Below, in pieces: positions 33,992-62,939 of a stretch of DNA of 64,000 nucleotides; position 1 is the stretch's first letter; each line of letters opens with the position of its first letter. The notes under the pieces were generated by a model. It had not been told where the DNA came from, made no database searches, and saw only the letters and a list, made by a program, of their open reading frames with translations. The position numbers were made by a program, and so were the translations under genes. Origin of the DNA: Antedon mediterranea (taxonomy: Eukaryota > Echinodermata > Crinoidea > Comatulida > Antedonidae); assembly GCF_964355755.1 (NCBI RefSeq), contig NC_092676.1, positions 26,394,288-26,458,287 on the forward strand, written 5' to 3'.

Positions 33992-34419
33992 CTAAAGCTC
34001 TGTCTACACTATTGATTGATTGAAATTTATTTTTATACTGGGTAACCTCTTCAGTCAAAGACTGGTCTCCCAGAGGGCCCAGTTGGCGATCAGTGGCTGT
34101 GATGTACTAATACACCGGGGTAACCCCCTACTCGTCTCGAAAGATGTACTAGGTTCTTTAAAGTGCACACGAGCAAGTTGTGTACACTGGACCTACGGTT
34201 TATAGTCCTTATCCGAGAAGACTTGTTCTACCACCAGAACCATGGAGTGAGTGAGCCTCAAACCCCTGCCGATGTTATGGCTACGTGATTACGGTTCCAC
34301 TGTCTTAACCGCTCGGCCACTCACCCACAAATATGGTAGTGATATGACATCGTCGTATCCATATATGGGCATATCAAATTTTGTTGTCACATAATGTTCG
34401 ATAGTGTAGACAGAGCTTA
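33992..34419. mobile_element. Palindromic MITE, family 1, copy 11, split by a SINE
   Basis: TAAAGCTCTGTCTACACTAT (33992-34011) and AAATATGGTAGTGATATGAC...ATAGTGTAGACAGAGCTTAA (from 34327) are the two halves of one MITE, separated by SINE-A copy 3. Confidence 0.85.
34013..34324 (-). mobile_element. tRNA-derived SINE, family A, copy 3 (nested in a MITE)
   Basis: Reverse orientation. Tail side ATTTATTTTTATACTGGGTA, body ACACCGGGGTAACCCCCTAC, head ending AACCGCTCGGCCACTCACC. It interrupts family 1 MITE copy 11, so it inserted later. Confidence 0.9.
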
Positions 34420-36674: not shown

Positions 36675-36864
36675 TTTCATTATTGACCAATCCTAAAACA
36701 AATTGTCTAGCGCCCTCTAAATTAAGTTTTAAAAGGACGTACTTAGTACCAACAGTGCGATTTTTTGATTGACAGATGTTTATCAATTCATTCAACCGTT
36801 ACGATTTCAGACGAACTTTCACCTGTCGGAGTGGAGGCCTAGATTTAGAGAAAGCATTAATAAA
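36675..36864. promoter_or_regulatory. Shared LIN7/ACSS3 intergenic region, probable bidirectional promoter
   Basis: Only 190 bp separate the LIN7 and ACSS3 start codons, which point away from each other, so both transcription starts and both 5'UTRs must fit here unless upstream exons exist. No TATA box is evident. The human LIN7A and ACSS3 genes are also divergent neighbours. Confidence 0.6.
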
Positions 36865-36868
36865 ATGA
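36776..36868 (+). CDS. Upstream ORF (30 codons) whose stop overlaps the ACSS3 start codon
   Basis: ATG at 36776 opens a 30-residue frame ending TGA at 36866-36868, overlapping the ACSS3 ATG (36865-36867) as ATGA. It is real only if transcription starts upstream of 36776. It could lower or re-initiate ACSS3 translation. The peptide is rich in Arg and Phe; no homologue recognised. Confidence 0.35.
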   Translation: MFINSFNRYDFRRTFTCRSGGLDLEKALIK

Positions 36869-39800
36869 ACACTTTAAGAAATACTTTAGAATTTATGAGG
36901 AGTAGGTCTAAATGTTGTTTAAATCTTGCAAATCAAGCACGTAAACTAAGCACACGACACCCTGTTAGATTAAAGCTAGCCGCGGGTGGTGTCCGGCGAG
37001 TTAGTTCAGCCTCAAATGACCTCCTTTATCAGTCCACTTTTGATAGAGCGAAGGACAACCCCTCTGAATTCTGGGCTGAGCAAGCAGAACAAATTGTGTG
37101 GTTTAAGCGATGGAACAAAGTTTTAGATGCAAGTAATTTACCCTTCACAAAATGGTAAGGTGTTGCTTTCTAAATAAATTAAATAAACAAATTAAAAATT
37201 TTCTATCGGCACAGTTGACTGTACCTGAAAATTCTATCCGCATGTCTGTGCCGATAGTCAACATTTGTGTAGTGGCTATTGGCACAGTTAGCAGTGCATG
37301 AAAAATTAATTGTTTCCTATCGTCAAGGTGAATCATGCATCTTTTATAATATGATAATAACTATATTTAGCTTATACTGTATAGCTTCAATGCTATTTAT
37401 TATTTATCCGATATTTGCAAATGTACAATTACTGTATTATCCATATCACAATAGCATCTATCATGTATTACTCTTCTTACAATTTTATAAATTGATAGGT
37501 TTGTTGGTGGCGAGTTAAACACTTGTTATAATGCAGTAGATCGTCATGTGGATGAAGGCAACGGCGAACGTGTTGCAATTATTCACGACAGTCCAGTCAC
37601 AGATTCACAAAAAAAATTAACATACAACCAATTACAAGAAGAGGTAAAGTTTGTACTAGCTGAGCTGCTAACTGAATATTATACCCTTGGTACACCAGCA
37701 GTGACGAAACAGCTATCAGCGCTCACTTGCTAGAGCCTCCGAGCATAAGGGGCCTCAGAGCATAAGCAGCCCCAATGCAACTACCCAGCGTTGGAGGCCC
37801 GTATGAGTGCTAAACCAGGGCTTTTGCCCCCTGCGTTATGCTACTGTACATACATCTTATCTTTTATAACAATGCTGGCATATTATCAAACTTTTATCGT
37901 TCTATTACAGACTTCAAAACTAGCCCGTGTACTTATAGACAATGGCATTAAAAAAGGAGACAGGGTGTTAATATATATGCCAATGATACCAGAAGCTGTA
38001 GTAGCTATGCTGGCCACTGCTAGAGTTGGGGCTATTCATTCATTGGTCTTTGGCGGGTTTGCATCAAAGGAATTGGCCGTAAGGATTGACCATGCTAAGG
38101 TAACTTATAAGACTTTCTTTTTTTAAACTCCCCCACTTAATTTGAGGTTCATTTACATTATTCATCATCATCATCATTATCATCATCATTCATTCATTCA
38201 TCTCTTTATTTCGGAATACCATGATCACAAAATGTATTCATAGCAAATAATAAACTTAATCTAAGAAATCATTGTACAGCTAAATACTGGTTATTTTTTA
38301 TTGTAGCCAAAAATGGTACTATGTGCAAATGTTGGTTTAGAACCAGGTAGAATTGTTGATTATAAATCGATGCTGGACACTGCGATAGACTTGAGTGTGA
38401 ACAAACCATATAAGTGCATAGTTTATAACAGACCAAATGTAAGTTTTATTGTAGTGGAAATACAGTCCTGTTAAATTAACATGCTTTGTTCTAGACAAAC
38501 TTATTCTTCCTTGATAATACTATAGCAAATCAAGTACTGTACGCTGTAGTAGAATTGTGGCTTGTTGGTTATGATGCTTGGGTACCAATCCAAGGGTCCT
38601 GGGTTCAAGTTCTGTCAGGATTTTTTCTAATGACAATGACAATTTATAACTCCACTCCTAAAGACTTGTAATAAGACTTTGTTTATGTAGAGCATCTTGT
38701 GTATATGGTTTGTCTTGTGAACATGATTGCCACCTTTAAGAAGGATAGTGAATGAATTTGATTATTGTTATCCTTGGCAATTTGCCTAAATAAAAAAAAA
38801 TAATAAAAAGCATGGTTTGGTCTTTTATGAGTGATTAAAGATACATAATAATAATAATGGTAGTCTTATATAGCGCCTAATACAATGTGTTAGTGCTTTA
38901 ATTAATAAATTGAACTCTTTGTTTTGGTTAGCAAGACAGTGCAAAGCTAGTTTCCGAAAGGGATTTGATTTGGAATGATGTCGTTCCAGCAGCCAAAGGA
39001 CATGACTGTGTACCAGTGTCAGCTAATGACCCGCTTTATTTACTGTACACGTCTGGTACTACCGGTATGCCTAAGGTATGTTGGTTGGATGAGGCCGGAG
39101 ATCATATCCTTGTATCTTTATTTTACAAAAATAGTGTGCCCAAATTTTTGTATCAGCTGCTAGTGAGTTTTAGCTATCTATTTCGTGCAAGCTTACCTGT
39201 ATAAACCGACAATAGCCCTTTCTCCTTGAGGAGCAAAATATACCTCGAAAAATATTAATTTTCATTGAACACCCCTCTTCACAAATGGTATAGTCCATGA
39301 AGTATGCCCTCAGATGCCCACAAATCACCAGCATCATTTCTTTTCTATGCTTGGTAATGAATACTGTATATTAAATATTATATATGAACATCACAGGCAC
39401 AGAACAAAAAACCACCGGGTGATATACTGAAAATGTATTAATTAATTTGAAACGATAAGATGAGGAAATCTGTGAGAATGAGATTTACTGTATACAACAG
39501 CGTGATCTTACCCCTATGTGTACTACATTTATGTATTTCTCCTATTTCATGGTATTACTGTATAATTACCATTTTTACTTCCCTTTGATGAATGCCATTT
39601 GTCCAGTGTATCCATATATCAATATATTTATTATCAAATGCAATACAATACACATCAGTTAAAAAATAACATGATGATAATACACAGGTTTTATATTGAT
39701 GTTTGCCCTCTGCGATGAAGCTATACTGTACATATAGCTTTAATATGCAGTATCTATTTGTTTTAGGCAGTTGTGAGACCGAGTGGAGGCCATGCTGTAG

Positions 39801-42800
39801 CCCTTAAATGGACAATGAAGAATATCTATGGATTAGACCCTGGTGAGGTAAATAAAATATCATGATGTTGTAATTGTTAATGTAAATATTAGATTATGAA
39901 GATAAAAACCTATGACTTAATTCCCATCTGAAGGATGAGGTAATGAAAGTAAAGCCCTTTTGAGAATTGCCTATGGTTCTTCCCGCATGGCAATTACGCC
40001 ATCCACTCTCATATATACTTTGCTGTGATGATACCATACTCTACAGTATATATTCACCAACCAACAAATAAAATGTATTGTTTTAGCAATCAAACATTTG
40101 CTTTCAATATAATTTATTTTCAATCAGGTTTGGTGGGCTGGATCTGATTTAGGGTGGGTCGTAGGTCACTCATACATTTGCTACGCTCCTTTACTAAATG
40201 GCAACACTACAATTGTGTACGAGGGTAAACCAGTTGGGACACCAGATCCAGGTAGCTTCTTCCGAGTGCTTCATGATCACGACGTGGCAGCCATGTTTAC
40301 TGCTCCAACAGCTCTTAGAGCCATTATTAAAGAAGACAGCAATGGTACTTATGCTGATAAATACAAATTTGAAAAGTAAGTGCACTGTTGTTTTCTTTCA
40401 TATTCTAGTAAAGGGTCTTTCAAACCTGTTTCGGCACGCTAACAGTCCGGCGCTGGCAAATCATATTGAACGTCAATGTTTTGTTTTCATGACACTTCAC
40501 GCTGCCTTTTGATTTATTATATATCCGTTTCATTTGTACTTTAGTTTTCGTTACCTGTTTGTTGCTGGTGAACATCTGGATCTTGATTGTTATAATTGGT
40601 GTCAGAAACATTTCAGATCTCCTGTATTGGACAACTGGTGGCAGACGGGTAAGAGATAATGGTGGTAGTGATATTGTAACCTTGTAGGCCTACTTTACCG
40701 ACGTATATTTTAATTACAAATCTGTAAAGCTCTGTCTACACTAGGTTGACAAAAAAAGTGTGTTGTTGTAACCAAATGTGGTAGTGATATGCTTAAATAT
40801 GGAAGTGATATGTAATCATCATGTCCATATATTGGCATATCAGATTCATAAAGTTTGATAGTGTAGACAGAGCTTTAAACTGCACAATTTTTATATTAAT
40901 TGTGTATCACAGGTTAACTATTTGTAATCTTATCTTCTAGAAACAAGTTGGGCTATAACAGCACATCATGTAGGTCTGAGGAATGACCTTTCACCCCCTG
41001 CCGGCACCACTGGGAAACCTGTTCCTGGCTGGAATGGTAAGATGAAACTGTTTCAAACCTAAAATAGTAATCAATATTAGAAGTTCACCTAGAGAACTCT
41101 CCGCAATTCTTGTCTGCGATTAGGTTTTTCAAGAACGTTCCTTGTCCTATGACATGGAGAGATATTATGATGGAAACTCTTTAGCTCTGTCTACACTATC
41201 AAACTTTATGTGACAAAAAAATGTGATGTGCCCATATATGATATGATGATGTCATATCACTACCTTATTTGGGCATATCACTACCACATTTGAGCACATC
41301 ACACTTTTTTAGTTTGATAGTGTAGTCTTTGCATTGTTAATCAGCGCTGGCCGCACTGTTGATGAAATTTTTTTTAATCTAAAGCTCTGTCTACACTATC
41401 AAACTTTATGTGACAAAAAAATGTGATGTGCCCATATATGAACATGATGATGTCATATCACTGCCATATTTGGGTATGGCACTACCATATTTGGGCACAT
41501 CACACTTTTTTTGTCAAACCAGTTTGTTGGGTTTTGTCTTTCAGTAAAAGTATTGGGAAATAATGGTGAGGAGTTGGAACCAGATGAGCTTGGTACAATA
41601 GCAGTCAAGTAAGATTCTTTTTTCGTTATTATTTAAATATTTTACTCTGTTCTTTCTCCATGTCCATAAATGTTTTTGTTTTATAATTGCATGCTATGTT
41701 TATAACGGTTTCTACTTTTTTTTCAATTAATTTAGACTGCCTCTTCCACCAGGAGCATTTTCTACTCTATGGGAAGCAGATGATAGATTTAAAGAAGTAT
41801 ACTTTACTAAATTTCCTGTGAGTTAATACAGGATGTACCATATCCTTCAGGTGTAATCCCACCCCCTACTTTATGTCTGGCCCCCAGGTATAGTCCCAGT
41901 ATTCACTTTTGGTCTGGATGTAGGCCTCTCTCTAGCCAGTTTAAATGACTATTTACAAGAAATGCTTACCAATCATTTTTTTCCGCGGTCCCACACCCCA
42001 AAGTCAGCCCAATTTCATGTTCTAAGGGGTGGGATTATACCAGAGGATCTATGGTATATTAATATGTAGTTTCAAACATTTTTACTTGGAATGTTTCCAA
42101 TTTTTTTTTTAAACGAATCATTTTGTAGAACCATCAAGAATTAAGGGGTTATTTTAACTGGGTATACATTGCCCATGTAATTCCACAAAATTCAAGTACT
42201 GCATTAATATTCATTTTTTAATTTGTATAGGGATATTACAACACCATGGATGCAGGCAGCTACGACACTGATGGATATATCCACGTTAAGGCTCGTGCCG
42301 ATGACGTCATTAACGTTGCCGGACACAGAATAGCGTCTTCTGCTATTGAGGAGGTAAAATAAATATTTTAATTTATTTATTCTATTTTTCCCATACATAG
42401 TTGTTGGATATCTCCTAGTATGGCCACTGCGTACATATTCTGGTATGGGTCTGTTGGAACTGTTGGATTGTATAGCCACAAGTTGTTTACAGACCAGACA
42501 AGTCAGAATGTTCAACGTTAGAAATTTGTTTTATTTACTATTAATTTCATCATCTTATGCAATTTGTATTAATATACTAATTTTTATTGAAAGGCAATTA
42601 TGTTGCAAGGTGATATAGTAGAGTGTGCAGCTATTGGTTTAAAAGATGCGTTAAAAGGACATGTCCCAGTTGGACTGTGTATACTTAAAAAAGGTAAGTA
42701 GGATAATTTAATTATCTGTTAGTAGAGTCATATGGCTATACATCCACGTCTGTTCAAGTCTTGTGGAAGTGTGGGCCCAGGAAAACCAAGCCTTGTCAAC

Positions 42801-43613
42801 AGGGGTTAACACACTTAATGATAACTCATATCATGAGGTTAAATTAAGATTGACAAAACTTAACCCATTCAACTTATGACATTCAAGTTAGTTTGCAAGT
42901 TAATATACAAATAATAAATACTAGTGACCAATCAAAATGTCAGAATACAAGTGTGTTATAAACAGTAAATATATTTATATATATAAATTTCTTAGATGTT
43001 GACAAGTCCAATGAACAAATAACTGCAGAAATCATCAAGGCCGTACGAAATGCAATCGGACCTGTAGCAGCATTTAAAAAGGCCGTCATCGTGAGCAAGT
43101 TACCAAAGACGAGGGCAGGGAAGATATCAAGGCAGACTGTAGCTGCTATGGCTAATGGCGAACCATTCATAGTAAGTTAATAGTCTTTCACACCTGTTCC
43201 TGGAAAAAGTCATGCGCCGGCAAATCCAATTGAACATCAATGTTTTGTTTTCATGTGGCTATGTGCATATCTGCGTGGGGCGTGGTAAAAACGAAATATT
43301 GCCTATTTCACCGGACTAGAACCGTGACGGAACAGGTGTGAAAGACCCTTTAGACTTGACTCTACGAGACATTTGTTTGATGTTTCAAAGTATTTTTACT
43401 ATCTTTTATTGTTTTGATATTTTTTTCAATAGAGATTATTTGATTATTTATCAAAATTTATAAGTTACTACCTGCGACATACAATTAATATATTCTCACT
43501 GTGGATCTTAAAGTGAGTGAAACGCAACTTTCTTTCAGATCCCTGTCACAACAGAAGACGTAACTGCCTATGATGATGTTAAAACTGCCTTGGAAACAGA
43601 AGGACTGTTATAA
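36865..43613 (+). CDS. ACSS3: ACSS3 orthologue, mitochondrial short-chain acyl-CoA synthetase
   Basis: Exons: 36865-37154, 37499-37643, 37911-38099, 38307-38438, 38932-39075, 39767-39847, 40128-40375, 40545-40648, 40941-41036, 41545-41608, 41736-41817, 42231-42353, 42594-42693, 42996-43171, 43539-43613. They join in frame to 682 residues (human 686). The N-terminus ([18 protein letters not shown]...) is basic and non-acidic, as for a mitochondrial presequence. [15 protein letters not shown] starts the ACS N-domain. The AMP-binding signature [10 protein letters not shown] lies at about 291-300, followed by A where G is usual. [15 protein letters not shown] and DNWWQTE mark the acyl-adenylate site. 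The C-domain lysine motif KTRAGKISR puts K642 as the catalytic and acetylatable lysine of the family. It converts propionate/acetate, ATP and CoA to acyl-CoA, AMP and PPi. A second last exon lies at 44614. MITEs crowd introns 8-10. Confidence 0.97.
37202..37256. repeat. Short inverted repeat CTATCGGCACAG/CTGTGCCGATAG
   Basis: Perfect 12-bp arms at 37202-37213 and 37245-37256, with a related CTATTGGCACAG at 37277. Lies in ACSS3 intron 1. Small foldback or element remnant. Confidence 0.7.
37720..37850 (+). repeat. Dispersed repeat, copy 3 (GTGCTAAACCAGGG family)
   Basis: CAACTACCCAGCGTTGGAGG and TGAGTGCTAAACCAGGGC match 16480-16565; the AGCGCTCACTTGCTAGAGCC start matches 17300-17340. Lies in ACSS3 intron 2. 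Confidence 0.65.
38553..38808 (+). mobile_element. tRNA-derived SINE, family B, full copy
   Basis: Head AATTGTGGCTTGTTGGTTAT, B-box region TCCTGGGTTCAAGTTC, body CTTTGTTTATGTAGAGCATC and GAAGGATAGTGAATGAAT, tail TTGCCTAAATAAAAAAAAA. Matches 3222-3438 on the other strand. Lies in ACSS3 intron 4. Confidence 0.85.
39402..39484 (-). repeat. Reverse fragment of the 14-kb tRNA-like repeat body
   Basis: CACCGGGTGATATACTG, ATTAATTAATTTGAAACGAT and GAGGAAATCTGTGAGAATGA are the reverse complement of the body after the tRNA-like units at 14297-14390. No tRNA part is present. Confidence 0.8.
40425..40505. mobile_element. Half copy of the TTTCACACCTGTTCC element
   Basis: GGGTCTTTCAAACCTGTTTC, CCGGCGCTGGCAAATCATAT and GAACGTCAATGTTTTGTTTT match the left part of 43180-43352. 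The right end is missing. Lies in ACSS3 intron 7. Confidence 0.75.
40725..40877. mobile_element. Palindromic MITE, family 1, copy 14
   Basis: TAAAGCTCTGTCTACACTAG at the left, TTGATAGTGTAGACAGAGCT at the right. Lies in ACSS3 intron 8. Confidence 0.88.
41180..41326. mobile_element. Palindromic MITE, family 1, copy 15
   Basis: TTTAGCTCTGTCTACACTAT at the left, TTTAGTTTGATAGTGTAG at the right, all interior blocks present. Lies in ACSS3 intron 9. Confidence 0.88.
41380..41525. mobile_element. Palindromic MITE, family 1, copy 16, ending at an ACSS3 splice acceptor
   Basis: Left end complete (TAAAGCTCTGTCTACACTAT). The right arm stops at GTCAAACCAGTTTG; the terminal AGTGTAGACAGAGC is missing and 20 bp later comes the acceptor of exon 10 (TTTTGTCTTTCAG to 41544). 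Confidence 0.88.
41836..42056. mobile_element. 221-bp inverted-repeat element (TGTAATCCCACC type)
   Basis: Left TACCATATCCTTCAGGTGTA then ATCCCACCCCCTA; right TAAGGGGTGGGATTATACCA then GAGGATCTATGGTA. Ends are inverse complements with mismatches. A possible relic is at 23955-23985. Lies in ACSS3 intron 11. Confidence 0.8.
43180..43352. mobile_element. Inverted-repeat element with TCTTTCACACCTGTTCC ends
   Basis: Left AGTCTTTCACACCTGTTCCT, right GGAACAGGTGTGAAAGACCC, near-perfect over about 17 bp. A half copy is at 40425-40505. Lies in ACSS3 intron 14, just after the exon 14 donor (43172). Confidence 0.88.
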
Positions 43614-45035: not shown

Positions 45036-45639
45036 GTTGTGTTCGCATTTAGTCTAATAAACTTAAAGATATATTTTATAGATCTTTATTTTCCATGATG
45101 TTGGAGGACAATACATCTTTAATAAACGCCATTACTCTGGATCCGTTTATGTGCTTAGTATTTAATTTATAGTAGAGGAGAAGACAACTAAATGAATCTC
45201 TGTTGAAATTTGAACTTTATGAATAGACCATCGCCCCCCAAATAAATAAAAAATGACTATACATAATGATATCATATTTACAATATAAAAATCCATTCAA
45301 ATGTCTGTAATATGGTAATGTTACTGATACAAAATCTAACAATTTTATACTACAACTAGTCTTCCAGTATAGGAGATATTCTTCAATTAAATGTGTATAT
45401 TAATTTTGATTAGTATTTTTAGTAGGCCTATATTTTATACACTTTCCTTAATATATATTGTATATTTTATTAATTGTTGCTAAAAATAAACAAATTGATT
45501 ATCTTCCTGATATTATATTGGTTGAAAAAATCAATTGTGATTGTAGTTTGTTGGAACTGTTGAAAAATAGCCAACTATTCACTTTCTAAGTCAATAATAG
45601 TACAGGGATTTTTTCCAAAAAATGACCAAATTTCGACCC

Positions 45640-48600
45640 TTTTATTTTTTGACAAAACTGGTTACAAACACTCTATAAGATGATGGTAACGCAATATATG
45701 TGCATATATGGCAATATTATTCCATAATAATTGAATTTTAAAAAGTTGATATTTTGGCCATTTTTAAAAAAATCCCCCGAAAAATTACTAAATTTCGACC
45801 CTTTTATTTTTCCACAAAACTGGTTACTATGACTCTATAAGTTGATTATAATGCAATATATGAGCATATATGGCAATATTATTGCAAAATAATTGAATTT
45901 TAAAAAGTCGATATTTTGGCCATTTAAAAAAAAAAATCAACCGAAAAATTGCCAATTTTCGACCCTTTTATTTTTTACATAAATGGTTACTACAGCATAA
46001 TAAATATGCGTAGAGTAGAATAATGGGCTCTGCGCATGTCAATTATGCTATAGTAACCAGTTTTATCGAGGAAAAAAAAAAGGCCATTTTTTTTTTCTGA
46101 AAAAATTATGCTATATAACCAGCCCTTTTATTTGTTGACATAAATGGTTACTATAGCATAATAAACATGCGCAGAGTTGAATAATGGGCTCTGCGCATGT
46201 CAATTATGCTATAGTAACCAGCCCTTTTATTTTTTGACATAAATGGTTACTATAGCATAATAAACATGCGCAGAGTAGAATAATGTGCTCTGCGCATGTC
46301 AATTATGCTATAGTAACCAGTTTTATCGAAAAATAAAAAGGTCGAAATTTGGCCATTTTCTGAAAAATTCCTGAAGTACAGGGAAATTTTCGAAAAATGA
46401 CCAATTTTCGACCCTTTTATTTTTTGACATAAATGGTTACTATAGCATAATAAACATGCGCAGAGTCGAATAATGGGTTCTGCGCATGTCAATTATGCTA
46501 AAGTAACCAGCCCTTTTTTTTGACATAAATGGTTACTATAGCATAATAAACATGCGCAGAGTTGAATAATGAGCTGTGCGCATGTCAATTATGCTATAGT
46601 AACCAGCCCTTTTATTTTTTGACATAAATGGTTACTTTAGCATAATAAACATGCGCAGAGTCGAATAATGGGCTCTGCGCATTTCAATTAGGCTATAATA
46701 ACCAGTTTTATCGAAAAATAAAAAGTTCGAAATTTAGCCATTTTCTGAAAAAATCCCTGTACAGGGAAATTTTCGAAAAAATAGCCAATTTTCGACCCTT
46801 TTATTTGTTGACATAAATGGTTGCTATAGCATAATAAACATGCGCAGAGTAGAATAATGGGTTCTGCGCATGTCAATTATGCTATATAACCAGCCCTTTT
46901 ATTTGTTGACATAAATGGTTGCTATAGCATAATAAACATGCGCAGAGTAGAATAATGGGCTCTGCGCATGTCAATTATGCTATAGTAACCAGTTTTATCA
47001 AAAAATAAAAAGGTCGAAATTTGGCCATTTTCTGAAAAATCCCTGAACTATAGTACAGGGAAATTTTCGAAAAATGACCAATTTTCGACCCTTTTATTTT
47101 TTGACTTAAATAGTTACTCTAGCATAATAAATATGCGCAGAGTCGAATAATGGGCTCTGCGCATGTCAATTATGCTATAGTAACCAGTTTTATCGAAAAA
47201 TAAAAAGGTCGAAATTTGGCCATTTTCTGAAAAATCCCTGTACTATAGTACAGGGAAATTTTCGAAAAATAGCCAATTTTCGACCCTTTTATTTTTTGAC
47301 ATAAATGGTTGCTATAGCATAATAAACATGCGCAGAGTCGAATAATGGGTTCTGCGCATGTCAATTATGCTATATAACCAGCCCTTTTATTGTTGAAATT
47401 TGGCCATTTTCTGAAAAATCCCTGTACTATAGTACAGGGAAATTTTCGAAAAATAGCCAATTTTCGACCCTTTTATTTTTTGACATAAATGGTTACTATA
47501 GCATAATAAACATGCGCAGAGTCGAATAATGGGTTCTGCACATGTCAATTATGCTATATAACCAGCCCTTTTATTTGTTGACATAAATTGTTACTATAGC
47601 ATAATAAACATGCGCAGAGTAGAATAATGGGCTCTGCGCATGTCAATTATGCTATAGTAACCAGTTTTATCGAAAAATAAAAAGGTCGAAATTTGGCCAT
47701 TTTCTGAAAAATCCCTGAACTATAGTACAGGGAAATTTTCGAAAAATAGCAAATTTTCGACCCTTTTATTTTTTGACATAAATGGTTGCTATAGCATAAT
47801 AAACATGCGCAGAGTAAAATAATGGGCTCTGCGCATGTCAATTATGCTAAAGTAACCAGCCCTTTTATTTTTTGACATAAATGGTTACTATAGCATAATA
47901 AACATGCGCAGAGTTGAATAATGAGCTCTGCGCATGTTAATTATGCAATAGTAACCAGTTTTATCGAAAAATAAAAAGGTCGAAATTTGGCCATTTTCTG
48001 AAAAATCCCTGTACTATAGTAGGCCTACAGGGAAATTTTCGAAAAATAGCCAATTTTCGAGCCTTTTATTTTTTGACATAAATGGTTGCTATAGCATAAT
48101 AAACATGCGAAGAGTCGAATACTGGGTTCTGCGCATGTCAATTATGCTATAGTAACCAGCCCTTTTATTTTTTGACATAAATGGTTACTTTAGCATAATA
48201 AACATGCGCTGAGTCGAATAATGGGCTCTGCGCATTTCAATTATGCTATAGTAACCAGTTTTATCGAAAAATAAAAAGGTCGAAATTTGGCCATTTTCTG
48301 AAAAATTCCTGAACTATAGTACAGGGAAATTTTCGAAAGATGACCAATTTTCGACCGTTTTATTTGTTGACATAAATGGTTACTATAGCATAATAAACAT
48401 GCGCAGAGTAGAATAATGGGCTCTGCGCATGTCAATTATGCTATAGTAACCAGCCCTTTTATTTTTTGACATAAATGGTTACTTTAGCATAATAAACATG
48501 CGCAGAGTCGAATAATGGGCTCTGCGCATTTCAATTATGCTATAGTAACCAGTTTTATCGAAAAATAAAAAGGTCGAAATTTGGCCATTTTCTGAAAAAT

Positions 48601-51020
48601 CCCTGAACTATAGTACAGGGAAATTTTCGAAAGATGACCAATTTTCGACCGTTTTATTTGTTGACATAAATGGTTAATATAGCATAATAAACATGCGCAG
48701 AGTAGAATAATGGGCTCTGCGCATGTCAATTATGCTATAGTAACCAGCCCTTTTATTTTTTGACATAAATGGTTACTTTAGCATAATAAACATGCGCAGA
48801 GTCGAATAATGGGCTCTGCGCATGTCAATTATGCTATAGTAACCAGTTTTATCGAAAAATAAAAAGGTCGAAATTTGGCCATTTTCTGAAAAAATCCCTG
48901 TACAGGGAAATTTTCGAAAAATAGCAAATTTTCGACCCTTTTATTTTTTGACATAAATGGTTGCTATAGCATAATAAACATGCGCAGAGTCGAATACTGG
49001 GTTCTGCGCATGTCAGTTATGCTATAGTAACTAGCCCTTTTATTTTTTGACATAAATGGTTACTATAGCATAATAAACATGCGCAGAGTTGAATAATGAG
49101 CTCTGCGCATGTCATTTATGCTATAGTAACCAGTTTTATCGAAAAATAAAAAGTTCGAAATTTAGCCATTTTCTGAAAAAATCCCTGAACTATAGTACAG
49201 GGAAATTTTCGAAAAATGACCAATTTTCGACCCTTTTATTTTTTGACATAAATGGTTACTCTAGCATAATAAACATGCGCAGAGTCGAATAATGGGCTCT
49301 GCGCATGTCAATTATGCTATAATAACCAGTTTTATCTAAAAATAAAAAGGTCGAAATTTGGCCATTTTCTGAAAAATCCCTGTACTATAGTACAGGGAAA
49401 TTTTCGAAAAATAGCCAATTTTCGACCCTTTTATTTTTTGAAATAAATGGTTGCTATAGCATAATAAAAATGCGCAGAGTCGAATAATGGGTTCTGCGCA
49501 TGTCAATTATGCTATATAACCTGCCCTTTTATTGTTGAAATTTGGCCATTTTCTGAAAAATCCCTGTACTATAGTACAGGGAAATTTTCGAAAAATAGCC
49601 AATTTTCGACCCTTTTATTTTTTGACATAAATGGTTACTATAGCATAATAAACATGCGCAGAGTAGAATAAAGGGCTCTGCGCATGTCAATTATGCTATA
49701 GTAACCACTTTTATCGAAAAATAAAAAGTTCGAAATTTAGCCATTTTCTGATTATTTCATTTCTGGTTATATACAGGGTAATTTTCGAAAAATAGCCAAT
49801 TTTCGACCCTTTTATTTTTTGACATAAATGGTTACTTTAGCATAATAAACATGCGCAGAGTCGAATAATGGGCTCTGCGCATGTCAATTATGCTATAGTA
49901 ACCAGTTTTATCGAAAAATAAAAAGGTCGAAATTTGGCCATTTTCTGAAAAAATCCCTGTACTATAGTACAGGGAAATTTTCGAAAAATAGCCAATTTTC
50001 GACCCTTTTACTTTTTGACATAAATGGTTGCAATAGCATAATAAACATGCGCAGAGTCGAATAATGGGTTCTGCGCATGTCAATTATGCTATATAACCAG
50101 CCCTTTTATTGTTGAAATTTGGCCATTTTCTGAAAAATCCCTGTACTATAGTACAGGGAAATTTTCGAAAAATAGCCAATTTTCGACCCTTTTATTTTTT
50201 GACATAAATGGTTACTATAGCATAATAAACATGCGCAGAGTAGAATAAAGGGCTCTGCGCATGTCAATTATGCTATAGTAACCACTTTTATCGAAAAATA
50301 AAAAGTTCGAAATTTAGCCATTTTCTGATTATTTCATTTCTAGTTATATACAGGGAAATTTTCGAAAAATAGCCAATTTTCGACCCTTTTATTTGTTGAC
50401 ATAAATGGTTGCTATAGCATAATAAACATGCGCAGAGTCGAATACTGGGTTCTGCGCATTTCAATTATGCTATAGTAACCAGCCCTTTTATTTTTTGACA
50501 AATGATTACTTTAGCATAATAAACATGCGCAGAGTCGAATAATGGGCTCTGTACTATAGTACAGGGAAATTTTCTAAAAATGACCAATTTCCGACCCTTT
50601 TATTTTTTGACATAAATGGTTACTCTAGCATAATAAACATGCGCAGAGTCGAATAATGGGCTCTGTACTATAGTACAGGGAAATTTTCTAAAAATGACCA
50701 ATTTCCGACCCTTTTATTTTTTGACATAAATGGTTACTATAGCATAATAAACATGCGCAGAGTCGACTAATGGGCTCTGCGCATGTCAATTATGCTATAG
50801 TAACCAGTTTTATCTAAAAATAAAAATGTCGAAATTTGGTAAATTTTCGAAAAATGACCAATTTTCGACTCTTTTATTTTTTGACATAAATGGTTACTCT
50901 AGCATAATAAACATGCGCAGAGTCCATACTATACTGTACTATAGTACAGGGAAATTCGACCCTGTGCATATATGGCAATATCATTGTATAATTTAATTTT
51001 AAAGTCGATGTTTTGGCCAT
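45640..51020. repeat. 5.4-kb array of nested palindromes (about 30 hairpin units)
   Basis: Two palindromic cores alternate. Core A is GGTTACTATAGCATAAT...ACATGCGCAGAG, about 12 bp, then CTCTGCGCATGT...ATTATGCTATAGTAACC. Core B is CCCTGTACTATAGTACAGGG, a perfect 20-bp palindrome. Connecting arms (TTTTCGACCCTTTTATTTTT and its inverse AAAATAAAAAGGTCGAAATT) occur in both orientations, so the array is one arm of about 100 bp repeated in alternating directions. Some A cores follow each other directly through CCCTTTTATTTTTTGACATA. Both outer edges carry GCATATATGGCAATAT and TTTTGGCCATTT blocks in the same orientation. Conserved ORFs seen here are by-products of the repeat. Confidence 0.95.
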
Positions 51021-51492
51021 TTTGCTTCTAAACTAAAAGAGAGGGAAAAAAAACACTAACAGTAACACCATCTGATCCATAAATTGGATTGGTACATTAT
51101 ATTATTAAAGTTTCGTCATCATATTAAATTAACAACAGAAACAAACATACATAATTGGACAGCTTAACATATGAACTACTGTAAACCATGATTTAATTTA
51201 CACATCTATCATGCAATGCAAATAATTATTTCTAAAAAAAAGAAGAAAAACACAAAGTTTTATTATTCCTCTCTGTACTACCTTGTTTAAGTAGAACAAA
51301 TAAAATAAAAACATTCAAAAGATGAACAGGTTTTAAAAGGCATGTCGTATGGATACAAATAAAAAACATATCCATTGTCATTCTGCAGTACAAATATGTG
51401 GTAATTTTTGTTATACTGAAGATCCCTAAAATAAATGTATTGAAAATATTAAAGATAAAATCTATAGATTACAATAAAATAATACCAGTCTC

Positions 51493-52903: not shown

Positions 52904-55900
52904 TCATCGTTTTTTCTTAACCTCCGGTTGCTTTTTCTTTTGTTTGACGTCTTTGTCCACATGTTTCTTCTTGAGTTGAAATTTCTTCACATATCCATCT
53001 ATTAATCTACGGATTTTTACTGGATTAATTTCACCACTTTTACTATGACAAACCTGAAAAAAAAAAGCAAGTTATCTCTATATTTCAAGGAATACAGATC
53101 TGAAAAGCAATGTACCAATGATTTCTACAATTACCATTGTCTTTTGTAATAGAACTTTTGATTTATGAAGACATGGGATCAAGTCATGTCAATTTATTTC
53201 ATTGTGTGTACAGAGAGAAATTGTGATGTGCTTCCTCATCCTATCCTTCTAAGGCCAGGCAACGATCTTAGGTTGTCTCAAATCATAATCTTCCAAGAAT
53301 AATAGAGTGAGTGGCCGAGCGGTTAAGACAGTGGAACCGTAATCACGTAGCCATAACATCGGCAGGGGTTCGAGGCTCACTCACTCCATGGTTCTGGTGG
53401 TAGAACGAGTCTTCTCGGATAAGGACTATAAACCGTAGGTCCAGTGTACACAACTTGCTCGTGTGCACTTTAAAGAACCTAGTACATTTTTCGAGACGAG
53501 TAGGGGGTTACCCCGGTGTAGTAGTACATCACAGCCACTGATCACCAACTGGGCCCTCTGGGAGATCAGTCTTTGACTGAAGAGGTCAACCAGTATAAAG
53601 ATAAAACAAACAAAAAACAAATAAAATTCTGGTATAAGCTCTTAATTGTGAAATACGGTCTATTTTTCAGATGGGGAAATATGAGCTTGTATTGAAAAAC
53701 TGAAATATGGTTGGCTGCAAGGAAAACAATTTGGTGGTAGGATCAGTATTACTATTTCTTTGAAAAAAATAGAGTTAAACTCACTTGATTTACAGATCTT
53801 TTAAGTATTTCTTTGTAGTCATTTTTGTCAATTTCTTTACGTTGATAGTACGGCTTAATAGCTAGCTTCACCTCCTCCACGACACGCTCTTGGTGGTGTA
53901 ACTTCTTCAAGTACTGTGTAAACATAAATTGAAATGTAAGAATAATTGCATTAAAAATCAATAAATGCTTTAACTGGTTAAAAAAAAATGGAAGGACTCA
54001 ACTCTACCAAAATCTTGGACCTTAAAAAAACAGATGCAGGAACACGCACATAATATAAATACTGTAGTCACAAATATATATCAAAAAGTAGTTTTATAAA
54101 ATCATTTTAGCTGTCAAAGGGGGGAGCATGTGACCCTCCTAGATCCGCCACCAAAATGCTGTATGGAACTAAAATATTTACCCTTTCTCTGGAATTCTTG
54201 TTTTGAAGTTCAACTGCAGAAGACTCAATATCTTCTTCGTCATTAAATTCAAATTCAGCATCTGATTCATTAGGAGAGGGGGCGTTAAATATCGACTTGA
54301 AATCCTTATTTGCAGTGCTTGCAAATTTACTGGATCCGGGTAGGGCCTTTTCGGCGTCTGTTTCTTTAGAATCTAGAGTTGCCTTTCCCGATTTATTTAC
54401 AAATGTGTCAATCAACTGGTTTAGTTTGGATCCATCCTGTGTAACAAGCTGCGGTAAAATATCATTGAATGGTTTTGTCACCGGTTTATCTTTCGTTCCA
54501 TCCGGTGACGACTTTATTCCCGTTTCAACTTTTGGACGCTTTACAGCTTCAAAAGCACTGTCCGTGGAATTATTCAAAGAACCAAAGTCCGAGCTCAATT
54601 TTCGTTTTGAGTTTGGTGGAGGAGAATGAGTTTGGAATGATGAGCAGGGAGATGAGCTGGTTAACGATGGCGACGCAGTTGGTTCAAAGGGATCGTAGGG
54701 TTCATCAACCTTATCAACAGATTGTTCAAACGTTTGGGCTGGTTCTTTGGTCTTTTTGTCTACAACAGTTACATGTGGTGGAGAACTTTCTTTATCATTA
54801 CACTTCTTAACACTATTTTGTACTGGTGGTGGTATAACTTCTTTTATTTCTGCTTTTTTATGAGTTTGTTGTTTAAACGCAATAGCATCAATTTTGGCTT
54901 TTAAGCTTGCTACCTCACGTTTATCAATATCGTTCATTTTTTTTCTTTCGAGTTCTTCCTTTTTATCTGTCCTTGTTGTTTCCTTCACATCTGAAATGAC
55001 TTCTTTCTTTTTCTTCACTTTTTTGTCTTTCTCTTTTTTCTCTTTCTTCACCTTTCCCTTTATTGGTTTTTCTTTTTTCTTTTTCTTTTTATCTGAAAGT
55101 TCTGTTTTAGTACTTTTTGAACTGAAATCTATATTCTCTTTAGTTCTTTCTTTACTTTTTCCCTCTGATTTTCTATTCTCATTATTATTACCTTTTATTC
55201 GCTCATTTCTTTCAACCTTCTTTTCGTTATTTATACTTTTTTCAGATTTTACAATATCCTTTGACTTTCTTTGTTCTTTATTTGTACGGTCAGATTTATG
55301 TACTTGAGGAGTTGCATCTAATTTACTGTTTTTATCGCGTCCATTTGTTCTACTACTACTTCTCGAAATGTCTTTTTGATTTGTAGTTTCGTTTCTGGAC
55401 TTATCTTTACGGTTGCGATCATGATCTCGATCTTTGTTCTTATCTAGTGATTTTTCCCTGCGTTGGGAATCGGCTCCAGATGAATTGCTTCTAGTCGTCG
55501 TTTGGCTGTGACTGTATCTCTTACGTTCTTGCTTATTATCCTTTTTATCTTTTTCACGAGTATCACGATTTCTACGATCACTGTTTGTTTCCCATCCAAC
55601 ATCACGTTTATCCATACTTGCTTTTTCTCGGCTCTTCCTCCTATCAAAAATCGGCGAACGTTCACGTTTAACAGTAAAATTTTCCCAAGATCGTTCTTTT
55701 AAATAGCGTTGCGAACCGGCGCTGTTTTGACGCTGCCAATCTGCAGCAAACGCTTGTTCATAATTACGATGTTGTTGTTCCCATGTGGCAGACCATTCCG
55801 GATGATACTCGACCCACTTGCGATTATAATCATCCCAATACATTTCATAACGTGGATTATCGTAATTACGTTTAACTTGTATAACATGACGCAAATCATT

Positions 55901-58900
55901 ATAACCACTACCGCGATCATATCTATCACGATCTTCAATCCTACGAGAATCCTGATTTTTAGGGACCTTCGAAAGATCCGACACATTGTGGTGTTCATTT
56001 ACTACAACATTGCGCGTATCACGGTCGTGGCTATGTTTTGCTTTCTTTGTTTTTTTTTTTGGCAATTTACGGCCTTTTGTTTCCTCATCGCTTTTCACTT
56101 CCCCTTCTTCTGCAGATGAATCACGGGTGCTTCCTGACGTATGGGAGCGCTTACTTTTCCCATGCTTGCTTGATTTTTTCTTTTTATCATCTACCGACTT
56201 TCGCGACTTTCGTTCATCAGTTTCCGAGTGCGATTCAAAGCTGCTCGTTGAGGCACGACACGTAAGCGTACCTTCTCTGTGTTCTTTACCAGCACGCTCA
56301 TTTTGAGTGGACTTTGAATTCTCATCTTTTTTTACTTGTAGATTTTGCTTTTCCGTTTCCTCTTGTTCTTCATCTTTCTTCTTAACTACCTCTACCCACT
56401 GTGCTTCCTCCTCTACTATTTCATCTTCATCTTCTTCCTCCTCCTTTTCATTATCCTTAGTCCCATTAATATCTTTTACCTTCGAATCATCTTTAGCTTT
56501 ATGAGTAACTGAAAAAGGTGTTTGTATATCCCATTCAATCTCATCGTTCAATTCTTCCTCTAGCTGGCGCTGTTCCTTCATACTTCTCACTTCTTCTTCT
56601 CGTTCAGCTGCTCGTATATTAGCAAGTTCGCGGGCAGCCGCTCGCTTACCCTTTGTTTCAAGAAAATTATGTGGTTTAACATCATTGGAATCGTCGTCGC
56701 TATCTTCAGAATGTTCTAGATTTGTTTCGCAATATTTCGAGGTATCAACATTAAACTTTACTTCAGGTGGTAAACTAACATTGTACGTATTCTTATCAGG
56801 TGACTCGTTTAATATTCCAGATTTTACGTCACCCTCAGAAGATGTGCTCGTTCTTTTCCTCTTCCGAAGTGATGATTCTGAATAAAGAAAAATAAACATT
56901 ATTACATCATTTTGAAAATGAATTCATTCAAATATCTCAACAGTGAACATAATTTAGGGAACATACAAACCTAATTGGTGACAGTGGCTTAGTCTGCTTT
57001 TGCGCGTTCCTGTCAGCTAGTGACTATGATTTTATATTTTCTCCTTTTGTCATGTGCATGTTTGTTTCCTTTGTTGATTTGTATAATATTTTGTAAAATG
57101 TATCTTTTGCCTGAATAAATAATATAATAATACTAACATTAACTGAAATGTCCAACACTAACCTTTGGAAAGAGGGTTGGCTGATAAAGTACCATCTCGG
57201 TGTATAGTAACGTTCTCACTCTTAGTGTGAAGTAATTCCTGCCCTTGCATAATACTGCTTAAAACATCTACGGACGATTCCTGGTTTGAGCTGTGTTAAC
57301 ATTTTAAAAAAGGCAAATATATCATTTTACTTGTACTGCATTTATGTATGAAGTCATATCAGTTTGAGGAAAATGGGTGTGTTCATGTTACAAAGTGAGT
57401 TAAAAGTTGTCAAATTAATAGACTATCTGATAACTCCACCACATAAAAGTCCTAGAAAGTAGAAAGCCTTTTGCCATTTTCTCCCCGACTGTTATGCCAA
57501 TGATGATGAAGATGTGTCAGAACAGTCTACAAACCTGATACTAGAAGAACTTACCTAGTGGATTTAAAACTAGACAGGGTCTCTGAGGTATTAGAAACAT
57601 TGCTGTAAATAACAAAAAACATTGCATTAACATTGCATTAACATTTATTTCTTATCTTTCAGTAAGTAAACAAAATAACAATTTAAATATAAATAATTAA
57701 GAGGCAAAACCCAGAAAATAATAACATTTGGAATAACATACTTAACTCTCCTTTTGAAAGTAACATAAGCTGATATAAATTAATTCAAACTATGAATAAG
57801 TAGTAAAACTAACCTGATTTCTGTGAGGTCATTCCCGCCAAATATATTCAGTTTAGCAGCGCCGATACCGGCTCGTTGATTATCCAAACTTGGTTCCAAG
57901 CGCACTTTTCGGCCAGGTAACAAACTTCCTGCTCTTGGCTTGACAAGGCCTAGCTTGCCAGCGATCCTCGTTTTTACCGTTACAGGCTGTAGTCGTTTGA
58001 CTTTTCTTTTTACAGTTCTTCTTAATTTTTTACCCTTTTTTTTCTTTGAACCTTTTTTTTTCACTTTTTTTGAAGTTGCTTTTTTCTTTCTTTTCATTTG
58101 TACTCTGGGTAAACGTGTCTCTTTCTTAGTTAAAGAACCACTTGCCTAAAAAATCAGAAATTAAATAATTAATATGCATCAGTATTAAACAGCATAATGT
58201 CAGGTACTGTACATCGGTTCTTCCATATACAGCATCCATGTTCCTTGTTGTATACTGTAAATGTATGAATTGATAGTCCTTGAAAGATACCGGAAATGAT
58301 GCTGTAGTGTAAAGTTCTGTCTACACTATCAAAAAATGTGAACAAAAAAAGTGTGAAGTGTGCCTAAATATGGTAGTGATATGCCAAATATAGTAGTGAT
58401 AGGACATCATGTTCATATATGGGCACATCACATTTTTTTGTCAAATAAAGTTTGATAGTGTAGCTTATGTAATATTGTATGGTTATTTAATTAATGAAAT
58501 ATGGTAGCCATGTAATTCATGATTCATTCATAGTGTACCTCATTTACATCTTCTTCGCGTAGTCGTAGCGCTCTTGCTTTGCTAATCTGTGTGACAACAC
58601 GTTCACTAACTCTGGTTCGAGCAATAACACGTGGAATTCCTTGATAAATTTGAGAGTTCCTTGTCTCCATTGTACTTCTACTGGTAGTGTCTGGTTTATC
58701 TTCTTCTTCAACCTTAACTTCACATTGTTCTAGGAAACATAAATTTATGAATATTTTAAATTGTTGTTGTGAGAAACAGGTTATGATAATAAAACGTTTA
58801 CCCACGTTCCATGCAAAAACTATGTGTGTGAAATGCTAACATAGCCAAGCATTACCTCTGGCCTCAAACCAAATGCAGCGGACTAAGTGTGAACGCAGCT

Positions 58901-60674
58901 TTACCTCTGGCCTCAAACCAAATGCAGCGGAATAAGTGTGAACGCAGCTTTATCTTTAAACAAAAAGTTTCTTACTTTGTTGTTCTACAGGATCTAGACA
59001 CGATGGCGTACATTCTGGACAATACCATTCTTCAATGGGGATGTGTTCCAACGGTGGATCTAAACATTCCAAATGATATCCATTATCGCAACCATCACAC
59101 AGTAGGAGCCGATCTTCACGATCGCATCGTCCGCAAACCTCGCAATACGTTACCGATTCGTCTTCTTCCTCTTCTTGTTTGTTGCATGTGGCAACTTCTA
59201 TGTTGCGTTCAATTGGGCCGCCAACAATGCTTCGTACTAATATGCAGTGAAACACAGTGCGATCCACAGGGCAAGTGTTTACATGCTAAGTATTTAAAAA
59301 AACAAAAAGATTAGCATTATAAACCTGTAACTAAAGTATCACACTATTCTTTCTCACCAGTGAAAAGTAAAATACTGTACCCATATACACTGTAAAGTAA
59401 AATACTGTACCCATATACACTGTAAAGTAAAATACTGTACCCATATACACTGTAAAGTAAAATACTGTACCCATATACACTGTAAAGTAAAATACTGTAC
59501 CCATATACACTGTAAAGTAAAATACTGTACCCATATACACTGTAAAATAAAATACTGTACCCATATACACTGTAAAGTAAAATACTGTACCCATATACAC
59601 TGTAAAGTAAAATACTGTACCCATATACACTGTAAAGTAAAATACTGTAAAATGAAAATGGCCTATGGAATGAGTATGATTTTGTTTTGTTTTTTGTAGG
59701 TTTTCGTATGTTTATTTTGGTTTTGTATAAAATAATTTATACCTTTGACCATTCTTGTATACATTCTAAACAAAATGTGTGGTCACAGCTCTCTGGAGTT
59801 CCCAACTCTTGATCCCGGAAAGTAAGTAAACATATGTAACATCTCTCAGCGTCCTCATCGCTCTCGTACCCACATGCGCCAAGCTGACTTTGATCCTCGG
59901 GCGATGCTTCGTCCTCATTGTCTTCTTCATCCTCATCATCCGATTCACCCTCCTCTAAAATTTAAATATTATGAAATTCTTTAGGCAAAAATTAATTGAT
60001 TTTTAGATGTCTTTGATGTTTTAAAAAAAGTTGGAAGCAGTTTCCGTGCTAATGCACTTTTGCACTACTCAACTCTACTAGAGCTTACCCAATTTAAAAA
60101 CATTCACCCACTGTGTGGCGGTGATGGTAAGTGACCATGAAGTCTTATGCCCAGACAACCTGAATAACTATACACTGAAAATGTACTGACGGTACATATT
60201 ATGAATGAAAATGTGTATAATTTAGACAAATTTATTTATATAAACTCCATTAAATTACAAACCTTCGTCATCTGTGACCTCTTCGGTGACTTCTTCCCAT
60301 TCTTCAACTTCTTCATATTCTTCCGATTCATGAGTTGTTTCATCCATAGTACTTTCAAGAGTTGTTCCTTCTTGGTCATTCCCTGAACTTGTACCTAAAT
60401 TATCCTCCAAACTTTCATTCGTTGCCTCTCCTTTCTGGTTTCCAGCACCAGTTTCGACCAATCCATCCATAAACTCTTCATCAAATTCATCCCCGACATC
60501 AAATCCGTCCACATCTTCATTATCAAAGATTTTCTCCTTATCATTGCTATTATCATCATTTTGGAAAATATCTACCGGAGTATCATAACATTGTTTATCC
60601 GTAGAGTCTACCATTTGTGTGTGTGAATTTGCATCTACATTATTTGCCATCTTGATTTCATCAAATTTGTACAT
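52904..60674 (-). CDS. PHRF1: PHRF1 orthologue, PHD and RING finger protein 1
   Basis: Exons: 60674-60263, 59954-59743, 59285-58976, 58729-58539, 58145-57814, 57602-57555, 57290-57163, 56877-54182, 53913-53785, 53053-52904. In frame they give 1535 residues (human about 1650). A second ATG at 60650 (AAGATGG) is a better Kozak start and would give 1527. An acidic N-terminus leads to a RING at about 176-216 (CYICLLTF...[13 protein letters not shown]...CPVD), then a PHD finger at about 256-300 ([19 protein letters not shown]). Exon 8 (2.7 kb) encodes a Lys/Glu/Arg/Ser-rich disordered region. The C-terminus ([38 protein letters not shown]) is SRI-like, which in relatives binds the phosphorylated RNA polymerase II tail. 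In mammals PHRF1 is a nuclear E3 ligase (TGIF turnover) and histone reader. Confidence 0.95.
53305..53622 (+). mobile_element. tRNA-derived SINE, family A, copy 4
   Basis: Nearly identical to the copy at 6164-6478: head GAGTGAGTGGCCGAGCGG, B box GGGGTTCGAGGCTC, tail AAAGATAAAACAAACAAAAA. Lies in the last PHRF1 intron. Confidence 0.92.
58310..58468. mobile_element. Palindromic MITE, family 1, copy 18
   Basis: AAAGTTCTGTCTACACTATC at the left, AAAGTTTGATAGTGTAGCTT at the right. Lies in a PHRF1 intron. Confidence 0.87.
58854..58950. repeat. 49-bp direct duplication
   Basis: ACCTCTGGCCTCAAACCAAA through GTGTGAACGCAGCTTT occurs at 58854 and 58903 with one difference. It ends 25 bp from the donor of PHRF1 exon 3. 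Confidence 0.9.
59367..59650. repeat. 30-bp tandem repeat, about nine copies
   Basis: Unit ACTGTACCCATATACACTGT + AAAGTAAAAT, almost identical between copies, in the PHRF1 intron between exons 2 and 3. The 30-bp period creates a false repetitive ORF on the minus strand. Confidence 0.95.
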
Positions 60675-60685
60675 GAATCATGCAT

Positions 60686-62363: not shown

Positions 62364-62586
62364 GGACCTCCCCAAGGACACCCCCCCCCCCCAAGGACCT
62401 CCCCAGGGGCCTCCCCAAGGCCCTCCTCAGAGACCTCCCCAGAGACCTCCCCAGGGACCTCCTCAGGGACCTCCCAAAGGTCCTCCCAGAGACCTCCCCA
62501 GGGACCTCCCCAAGGCCCTCCCCAGGGACCTCCCAAATGCCCTCCCCAGAGACCTCCCCAGGGACCTCCCCAAGGCCCTCCCCAGT
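62364..62586 (+). repeat. GGACCTCCCCAG minisatellite
   Basis: About 18 copies of a 12-bp-based word (CCTCCCCAGGGA and variants), after a run of ten C. Open in several frames on both strands as Pro-rich or Gly/Trp-rich ORFs, which is expected for this composition. The minus strand has many GGGG runs. Confidence 0.9.
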
Positions 62587-62813: not shown

Positions 62814-62829
62814 ATAGACCTGTACTCCA

Positions 62830-62933
62830 TTTCTCGTCGCACTCTATTTCTCGTCGCACTCTATTTCTCGTCGCACTCTATGTCTCGTCGCACTCTGTTT
62901 CTCGTCGCACTCTATTTCTCGTCGCACTCTATT
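62830..62933 (+). repeat. 17-bp tandem repeat, six copies
   Basis: Unit TTCTCGTCGCACTCTAT, near-identical copies. Confidence 0.93.
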
Positions 62934-62939
62934 TCATCA

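Follow-up and report, generated by a model that had tools for sequence, protein, structure and literature searches.

A dispersed satellite of palindromic monomers in Antedon mediterranea, probably descended from a non-autonomous transposable element

The tandem array at positions 45,601–51,035 of the window analyzed here, a stretch of 64,000 nt from Antedon mediterranea (C7:26,394,288–26,458,287), consists of nearly palindromic monomers which follow each other head to tail. It represents one of the loci of a dispersed satellite family, which probably descended from a non-autonomous transposable element by the history proposed below. The family is a new addition to a known class, the transposon-derived dispersed satellites, and a function for the host is not indicated.

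Structure of the array and direction of its units

The limits of the array were taken from the edges of BLAST matches. It is intergenic and lies between two converging genes, as had been stated in an earlier note on this DNA, which was made from the sequence alone. To the left, an ACSS3-like gene is found on the plus strand (36,769–43,180; AMP-binding and AMP-binding_C domains), whose last coding exon ends at approx. 43,180; to the right, a PHRF1-like gene is encoded on the minus strand (53,752–60,677; RING, PHD and SCAF11-like C-terminal domains), with its last coding exon at approx. 53,752–53,997. Both genes are named solely by their domain content.

Two kinds of repeat unit were distinguished, termed A and B. 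The left edge of the array is formed by two older B-type units of approx. 165–178 bp (45,601–45,945, plus strand) with the ends TACAGGGATTTTT...AAAAATCCC and a weak dyad, ATATATGNGCATATAT; B units in general measure approx. 165–180 bp. The main array of palindromic A-type monomers follows at 45,946–50,930 (plus strand), and at the right edge, a truncated B unit (50,950–51,035, plus strand) is joined to a broken A core. We counted 33 hairpin cores in the array, where the earlier note had estimated roughly 30 in 5.4 kb. The two palindromic motifs named there were also recovered: the 20-bp hinge CCCTGTACTATAGTACAGGG is present in six exact copies and three more one-sided variants, and the stem CATGCGCAGAG/CTCTGCGCATG is repeated throughout the array with some mismatches. 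Each unit has two kinds of dyad. A units with a hinge measure approx. 196 bp and those without approx. 99 bp. Altogether, the array contains 62 inverted-repeat pairs, with long arms of up to 219 bp which are 77–83% complementary.

These dyads had been read as an arm of alternating direction, and the array as something other than an ordinary head-to-tail satellite. Neither reading holds. Each unit can be oriented, since its arms are distinguished by fixed differences (ATAATAAACATG in one, ATAATTGACATG or ACAATTGACATG when the opposite side is read), and all 33 cores in the window lie on the plus strand. Tandem Repeats Finder detected head-to-tail periods of approx. 99, 195, and 294 bp, and direct copies are 96% identical over 1,041 bp. 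What looks like alternation is the internal symmetry of a single palindromic monomer, since a palindromic unit in tandem creates two dyads per period, one at the unit centre and one at the unit junction. Inverted-repeat arms can, thus, mimic an alternating array despite direct copying. In the other arrays, nearly all units also have the same direction (23 arrays), and one orientation of all monomers, which defines a head-to-tail array, was found in most of them as well as in the window. True inversions do occur elsewhere, namely as two switches in locus L048 and as isolated inverted units or switches in L031, L036, and L059. Further, the monomers of L035 genuinely alternate in a +-+-+- stretch; they are regularly spaced, as would fit a single inversion and later amplification of the dimer.

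A family dispersed over the genome

The genome (354 Mb, 11 large chromosomes) was searched for further arrays, as the earlier note had suggested. The core pattern was detected at 4,767 places with at most two mismatches, compared to none for a reversed control, and the same monomer was found in 23 arrays. The exact hinge occurs 627 times in the 354 Mb. Arrays of A units are 1–8 kb long and dispersed along the chromosomes. Many A arrays have B units at their edges, and B units also form arrays alone, e.g., at C2:37.29 Mb and C4:1.81 Mb. In the loci read, array edges fall at varying points within the unit, and neither an outer end common to whole arrays nor a target-site duplication was seen. 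A foldback transposon was considered and rejected: there are no long bounding inverted repeats with a target-site duplication, as the edges vary and share no outer end. No flank shared with the window array was found. Flanks shared among other arrays are mainly an unrelated, abundant short repeat and an element of approx. 900 bp in L041. The latter (TATAACACCTATATAAATTCC...) is located at L041:7118–8009, where it splits an A array in two, and pieces of it lie near arrays in L059, L040, and L038.

Monomers were compared in a sample of 531 full cores from 23 arrays. On average, two cores differ by 5.7% if taken from one array and by 8.4% if taken from different arrays, and the nearest neighbors of window monomers are local in 97% of cases. 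The consensus of an array differs from the global consensus at 0–4 of 93 sites (23 arrays). This pattern fits ordinary local homogenization in a family which spread within a limited time.

Within the window, direct duplication of whole blocks of monomers is evident. The block at 46,520–47,558 (plus strand) is duplicated head to tail at 48,661–49,700 (plus strand), with 96.4% identity over 1041 bp at an offset of 2141, and a further, overlapping block duplication is found at 49,035–50,482 (plus strand; 95.8% over 875 bp, offset 575 bp). Hence, the array shows both array-wise homogenization and higher-order repeats, as is characteristic of a satellite.

Loss of the hinge

Hinges have been lost in some units. 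In the window, the junction AACCAGCCCTTTTATTTTTTGACATAAATGG (46,216–46,246, plus strand) is an example in which 97 bp of the hinge were deleted without microhomology. This junction, AG|CCC, is termed D1 and is also present in L042. Genome-wide, D1 was found with at most one mismatch in only five clusters, located at C7:26.44 Mb (the window), C7:27.67 Mb, C7:27.90 Mb, C8:4.01 Mb, and C2:3.69 Mb; three of the five are, therefore, on C7 and within 1.5 Mb. Another type of hinge loss with TTTT microhomology is present in L031, L040, L041, and L043, and one-base variants of its junction are found in L033, L034, L038, and others. Separate breakpoints were seen in L037 and in L028/L039/L045, and L032, L046, and L047 contain no hinge-loss junction.

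Deletion of the hairpin during replication, followed by amplification of the shortened dimer, fits these observations, and slippage across the hairpin would be the cause of the loss. Junctions common to different chromosomes suggest the movement of blocks of two or more monomers. The TTTT-microhomology junctions could have a repeated origin instead of common descent. As a tentative and rather doubtful generalization, the palindromic monomer may have been fixed once, whereupon replication across the hairpin may have removed the hinge many times in independent events, each of which may have seeded a new higher-order repeat and a new set of arrays that moved from chromosome to chromosome in blocks of several monomers. 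As a single genome contains thousands of copies and several hinge-loss variants, this family would allow measurements of the frequency of hairpin deletion and the onset of higher-order repeats.

The B unit and a sharp-ended element

B units carry the inverted ends TACAGGG...CCCTGTA, and when the outermost 45 bp of both ends are aligned, 32 of 40 bases are identical. Terminal inverted repeats are expected of a Tc1/mariner-like MITE. When compared to a single B unit from the window, the two A arms match its left arm at 58/68 and 61/68 positions over 70 bp, and its right arm at 46/63 and 49/66. As both A arms are nearest to the left arm of B, one inverted duplication of this arm would be the simplest origin of A. 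Judging from these sequence similarities, the palindromic A monomer was probably made by a foldback-type event before the spread of the family, most simply a single time.

Starting from short B loci, we reached a conserved segment of approx. 400 bp, which contains short palindromes. Its outer end is sharp, as 34 of the 40 matches begin at one position or no more than a few bases away, and its terminal 29 bases are present in 37 copies genome-wide. The sharp end of this non-autonomous element reads TAAGTGAGTATTGAATAAAATAATTATTG; examples of the segment lie at L041 2351–2638 (minus strand) and L043 approx. 808–1210 (minus strand). On the inner side, the segment continues through ...CAGGGCAGTATAGTACAGGG or a near variant into a B-type unit, which may have either orientation and is degenerate in L076. 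All seven readable copies (L041, L043, L070, L071, L075, L076, L077) adjoin the B-type unit at a half-hinge, which argues for a transposable-element origin of B. Accordingly, B is part of, or repeatedly located in, a non-autonomous mobile element. For B, a position within an interspersed element with fixed ends, as expected of a transposon-derived satellite, is found with one of the two ends identified, and A is linked to it via its arms. A second conserved flank was not found, the single right flank tested (L070) being unique, and the window has no match to the sharp-ended segment. Since, in addition, whole arrays have neither a target-site duplication nor a common end, and no autonomous partner was found, we infer rather than observe that A arrays moved as units.

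Two more specific versions of the transposon-derived origin were weighed. In the first, B is a Tc1/mariner-like MITE with a TA target and CAGGG ends, which inserted into the sharp-ended element and was then tandemized in the manner of Xenopus miDNA4 or Xstir. The inverted ends and the palindromic, AT-rich junction agree with this, and so does the occurrence of B in either orientation beside the same segment. However, among the six short B loci read, there is no clean, full solo insertion of B with a target-site duplication. We consider this version possible, though it falls short of being probable.

The second version, which is somewhat less likely still, assigns the arrays to Helentron-type non-autonomous elements (HINE/DINE-1/pearl-like), which carry tandem repeats in their centre and spread by rolling-circle transposition. 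A sharp-ended segment of this length with short palindromes, adjoining B repeats, would suit such an element, and the genome contains dozens of intact Helitron-like genes: 87 matches to Helitron_like_N were obtained, many of them in intact frames of approx. 3,000 codons, and these are apparently young rolling-circle elements. On the other hand, the failure to find a second conserved flank speaks against it, and B follows the segment in both orientations, whereas HINEs of C. gigas keep one (PMC7492417). Neither does any terminus lie near a Helitron gene. A search for an autonomous Helentron partner was negative, as 0 of the 37 termini lie within 459 kb of the 87 Helitron_like_N matches, a distance test by which a diverged partner could be missed. 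The Helitron-like genes have near-equal scores, and several of them are clustered, e.g., at C1:23.05–23.17, C8:0.80–0.94, and C4:19.88–20.02 Mb.

Hairpin potential, selection and foldback growth

The palindromes are real and well above chance. Single strands of a core and of a hinge were folded and compared to shuffled controls. The core (GGTTACTATAGCATAATAAACATGCGCAGAG-loop-CTCTGCGCATGTCAATTATGCTATAGTAACC type; 49,228–49,350, plus strand) has RNA-fold z-scores of −11.1 for the plus and −12.9 for the minus strand, and a DNA z-score of −10.5. For the hinge CCCTGTACTATAGTACAGGG with its imperfect arms of approx. 45 bp on both sides (49,318–49,440, plus strand), the values are −8.6 (plus), −12.0 (minus), and −8.6 (DNA). 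An edge unit and a nearby control gave z-scores of 0.83, −0.09, and −0.56. The strong hairpin potential claimed in the earlier note is, thus, confirmed for both strands.

Such stable folds between two gene 3′ ends might indicate that the array was selected for cruciform DNA or double-stranded RNA, and that it serves, for instance, to terminate transcription between the converging genes or to supply small RNAs. This is very unlikely, as the stems show no excess of compensatory changes, the hinge was lost repeatedly and thousands of copies exist elsewhere. Among 16,921 stem cells in the 531 cores, 12 double changes were observed and 11.1 expected from shuffling within arrays; two were compensatory, compared to 3.7 expected. 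Selection on the stems was, therefore, rejected.

Even less probable is growth of the array by hairpin or foldback intermediates, as assumed in the earlier note, in which one arm templates the other and alternating inverted copies arise. Under foldback copying, both arms of one unit would be sister copies. The arms, however, are only 79% alike within a monomer, while a left arm is 94% alike to the left arms of other monomers (531 cores, 23 arrays), and the fixed arm differences are common to arrays on many chromosomes. Together with the lack of any excess of mirrored changes, this led us to reject foldback growth. Within the window array, long inverted matches reach only 81–85%, compared to 96.4% for direct matches. 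Besides the hairpin potential, this mode of growth could draw on the alternating units of L035 and the single inversions in a few other arrays, but the spacing in L035 fits one inversion with subsequent dimer amplification. The comparison of arm similarity within and between units offers a simple test of foldback growth versus ordinary tandem duplication. Since the arms evolve independently, the palindrome is older than the spread of the family. Finally, an assembly artefact is scarcely credible: the DNA is repetitive, but its monomers differ by approx. 6%, and many similar, independent arrays are found in a chromosome-scale assembly.

Proposed history and comparison with known systems

The history which we propose for the transposon-derived family would have started with a sharp-terminus element, which carried a B repeat of approx. 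180 bp with inverted TACAGGG ends. The left arm of B would then have been duplicated once in inverted orientation, which created the nearly palindromic monomer A. This monomer would have been amplified in head-to-tail fashion, either within B repeats or next to them, and would have spread to many sites by a route that we infer, as we do the exact enzyme or exchange mechanism. Later, some units in each array would have lost the hinge hairpin by deletions at various breakpoints, and direct duplication of multi-monomer blocks, by either unequal exchange or replication slippage, would have produced the array-specific higher-order repeats.

The closest parallels are found among satellites derived from mobile elements. 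The Xenopus satellites that derive from MITEs, Xstir (Hikosaka and Kawahara, 2004) and miDNA4 (Scalvenzi and Pollet, 2014), both summarized in PMC12628747, resemble the present family in that tandem arrays, single units, and array-carrying elements of a single family are dispersed in a genome, in that the source element has inverted repeats, and in small deletions or additions at microhomologies. The dominant monomer here, in contrast, is fully palindromic and has a second dyad, the hinge, which is lost in an array-specific manner. The Helentron-carried, satellite-like repeats of oyster, Cg_HINE (PMC7492417), and the DINE-1/HINE elements (PMC4067079) also form short, dispersed arrays of 100–200-bp repeats, which adjoin a conserved flank belonging to a non-autonomous element, whereas only one flank was found here and the orientation of the adjoining repeat varies. 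Tetris, a foldback element and satellite of Drosophila virilis (Dias et al., 2014, as cited in PMC12628747), is similar insofar as an inverted-repeat transposon provided the building blocks of a satellite; whole arrays in the loci read here, however, lack both terminal inverted repeats at their flanks and a target-site duplication. The macro-dyad satellites of Tribolium share the potential for hairpins and cruciforms, but there, whole arrays of tens of kb are inverted (PMC13081366), while here the dyads lie inside each 100–200-bp monomer and the arrays are short and dispersed. The family is, thus, distinct by its dyads within each short monomer and by its set of hinge-loss variants.

Other repeats in the window

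Several further repeats were observed in the window. Near the 3′ end of the PHRF1-like gene, a repeat at 53,299–53,656 is 94% alike over 361 bp to L033:1957–2313 and carries a short open frame; an ORF at 34,020–34,205 was grouped with it. A short dispersed repeat with internal units of 21 bp (CATATCACTACCATATTTGGG or similar) is present at positions 5680, 8799, 23428, 24643, 26782, 30924, 41253, 51546, and 58361. Its copy at 51.5 kb is flanked by the inverted ends CTATCAAACT/AGTTTGATAG, and a similar repeat is common near other arrays. Minisatellites are located at 20,807–21,274 (19-bp unit), 59,364–59,649 (30 bp), 62,389–62,585 (12 bp), and 62,824–62,935 (17 bp), the one with the 30-bp unit being inside the PHRF1-like gene.
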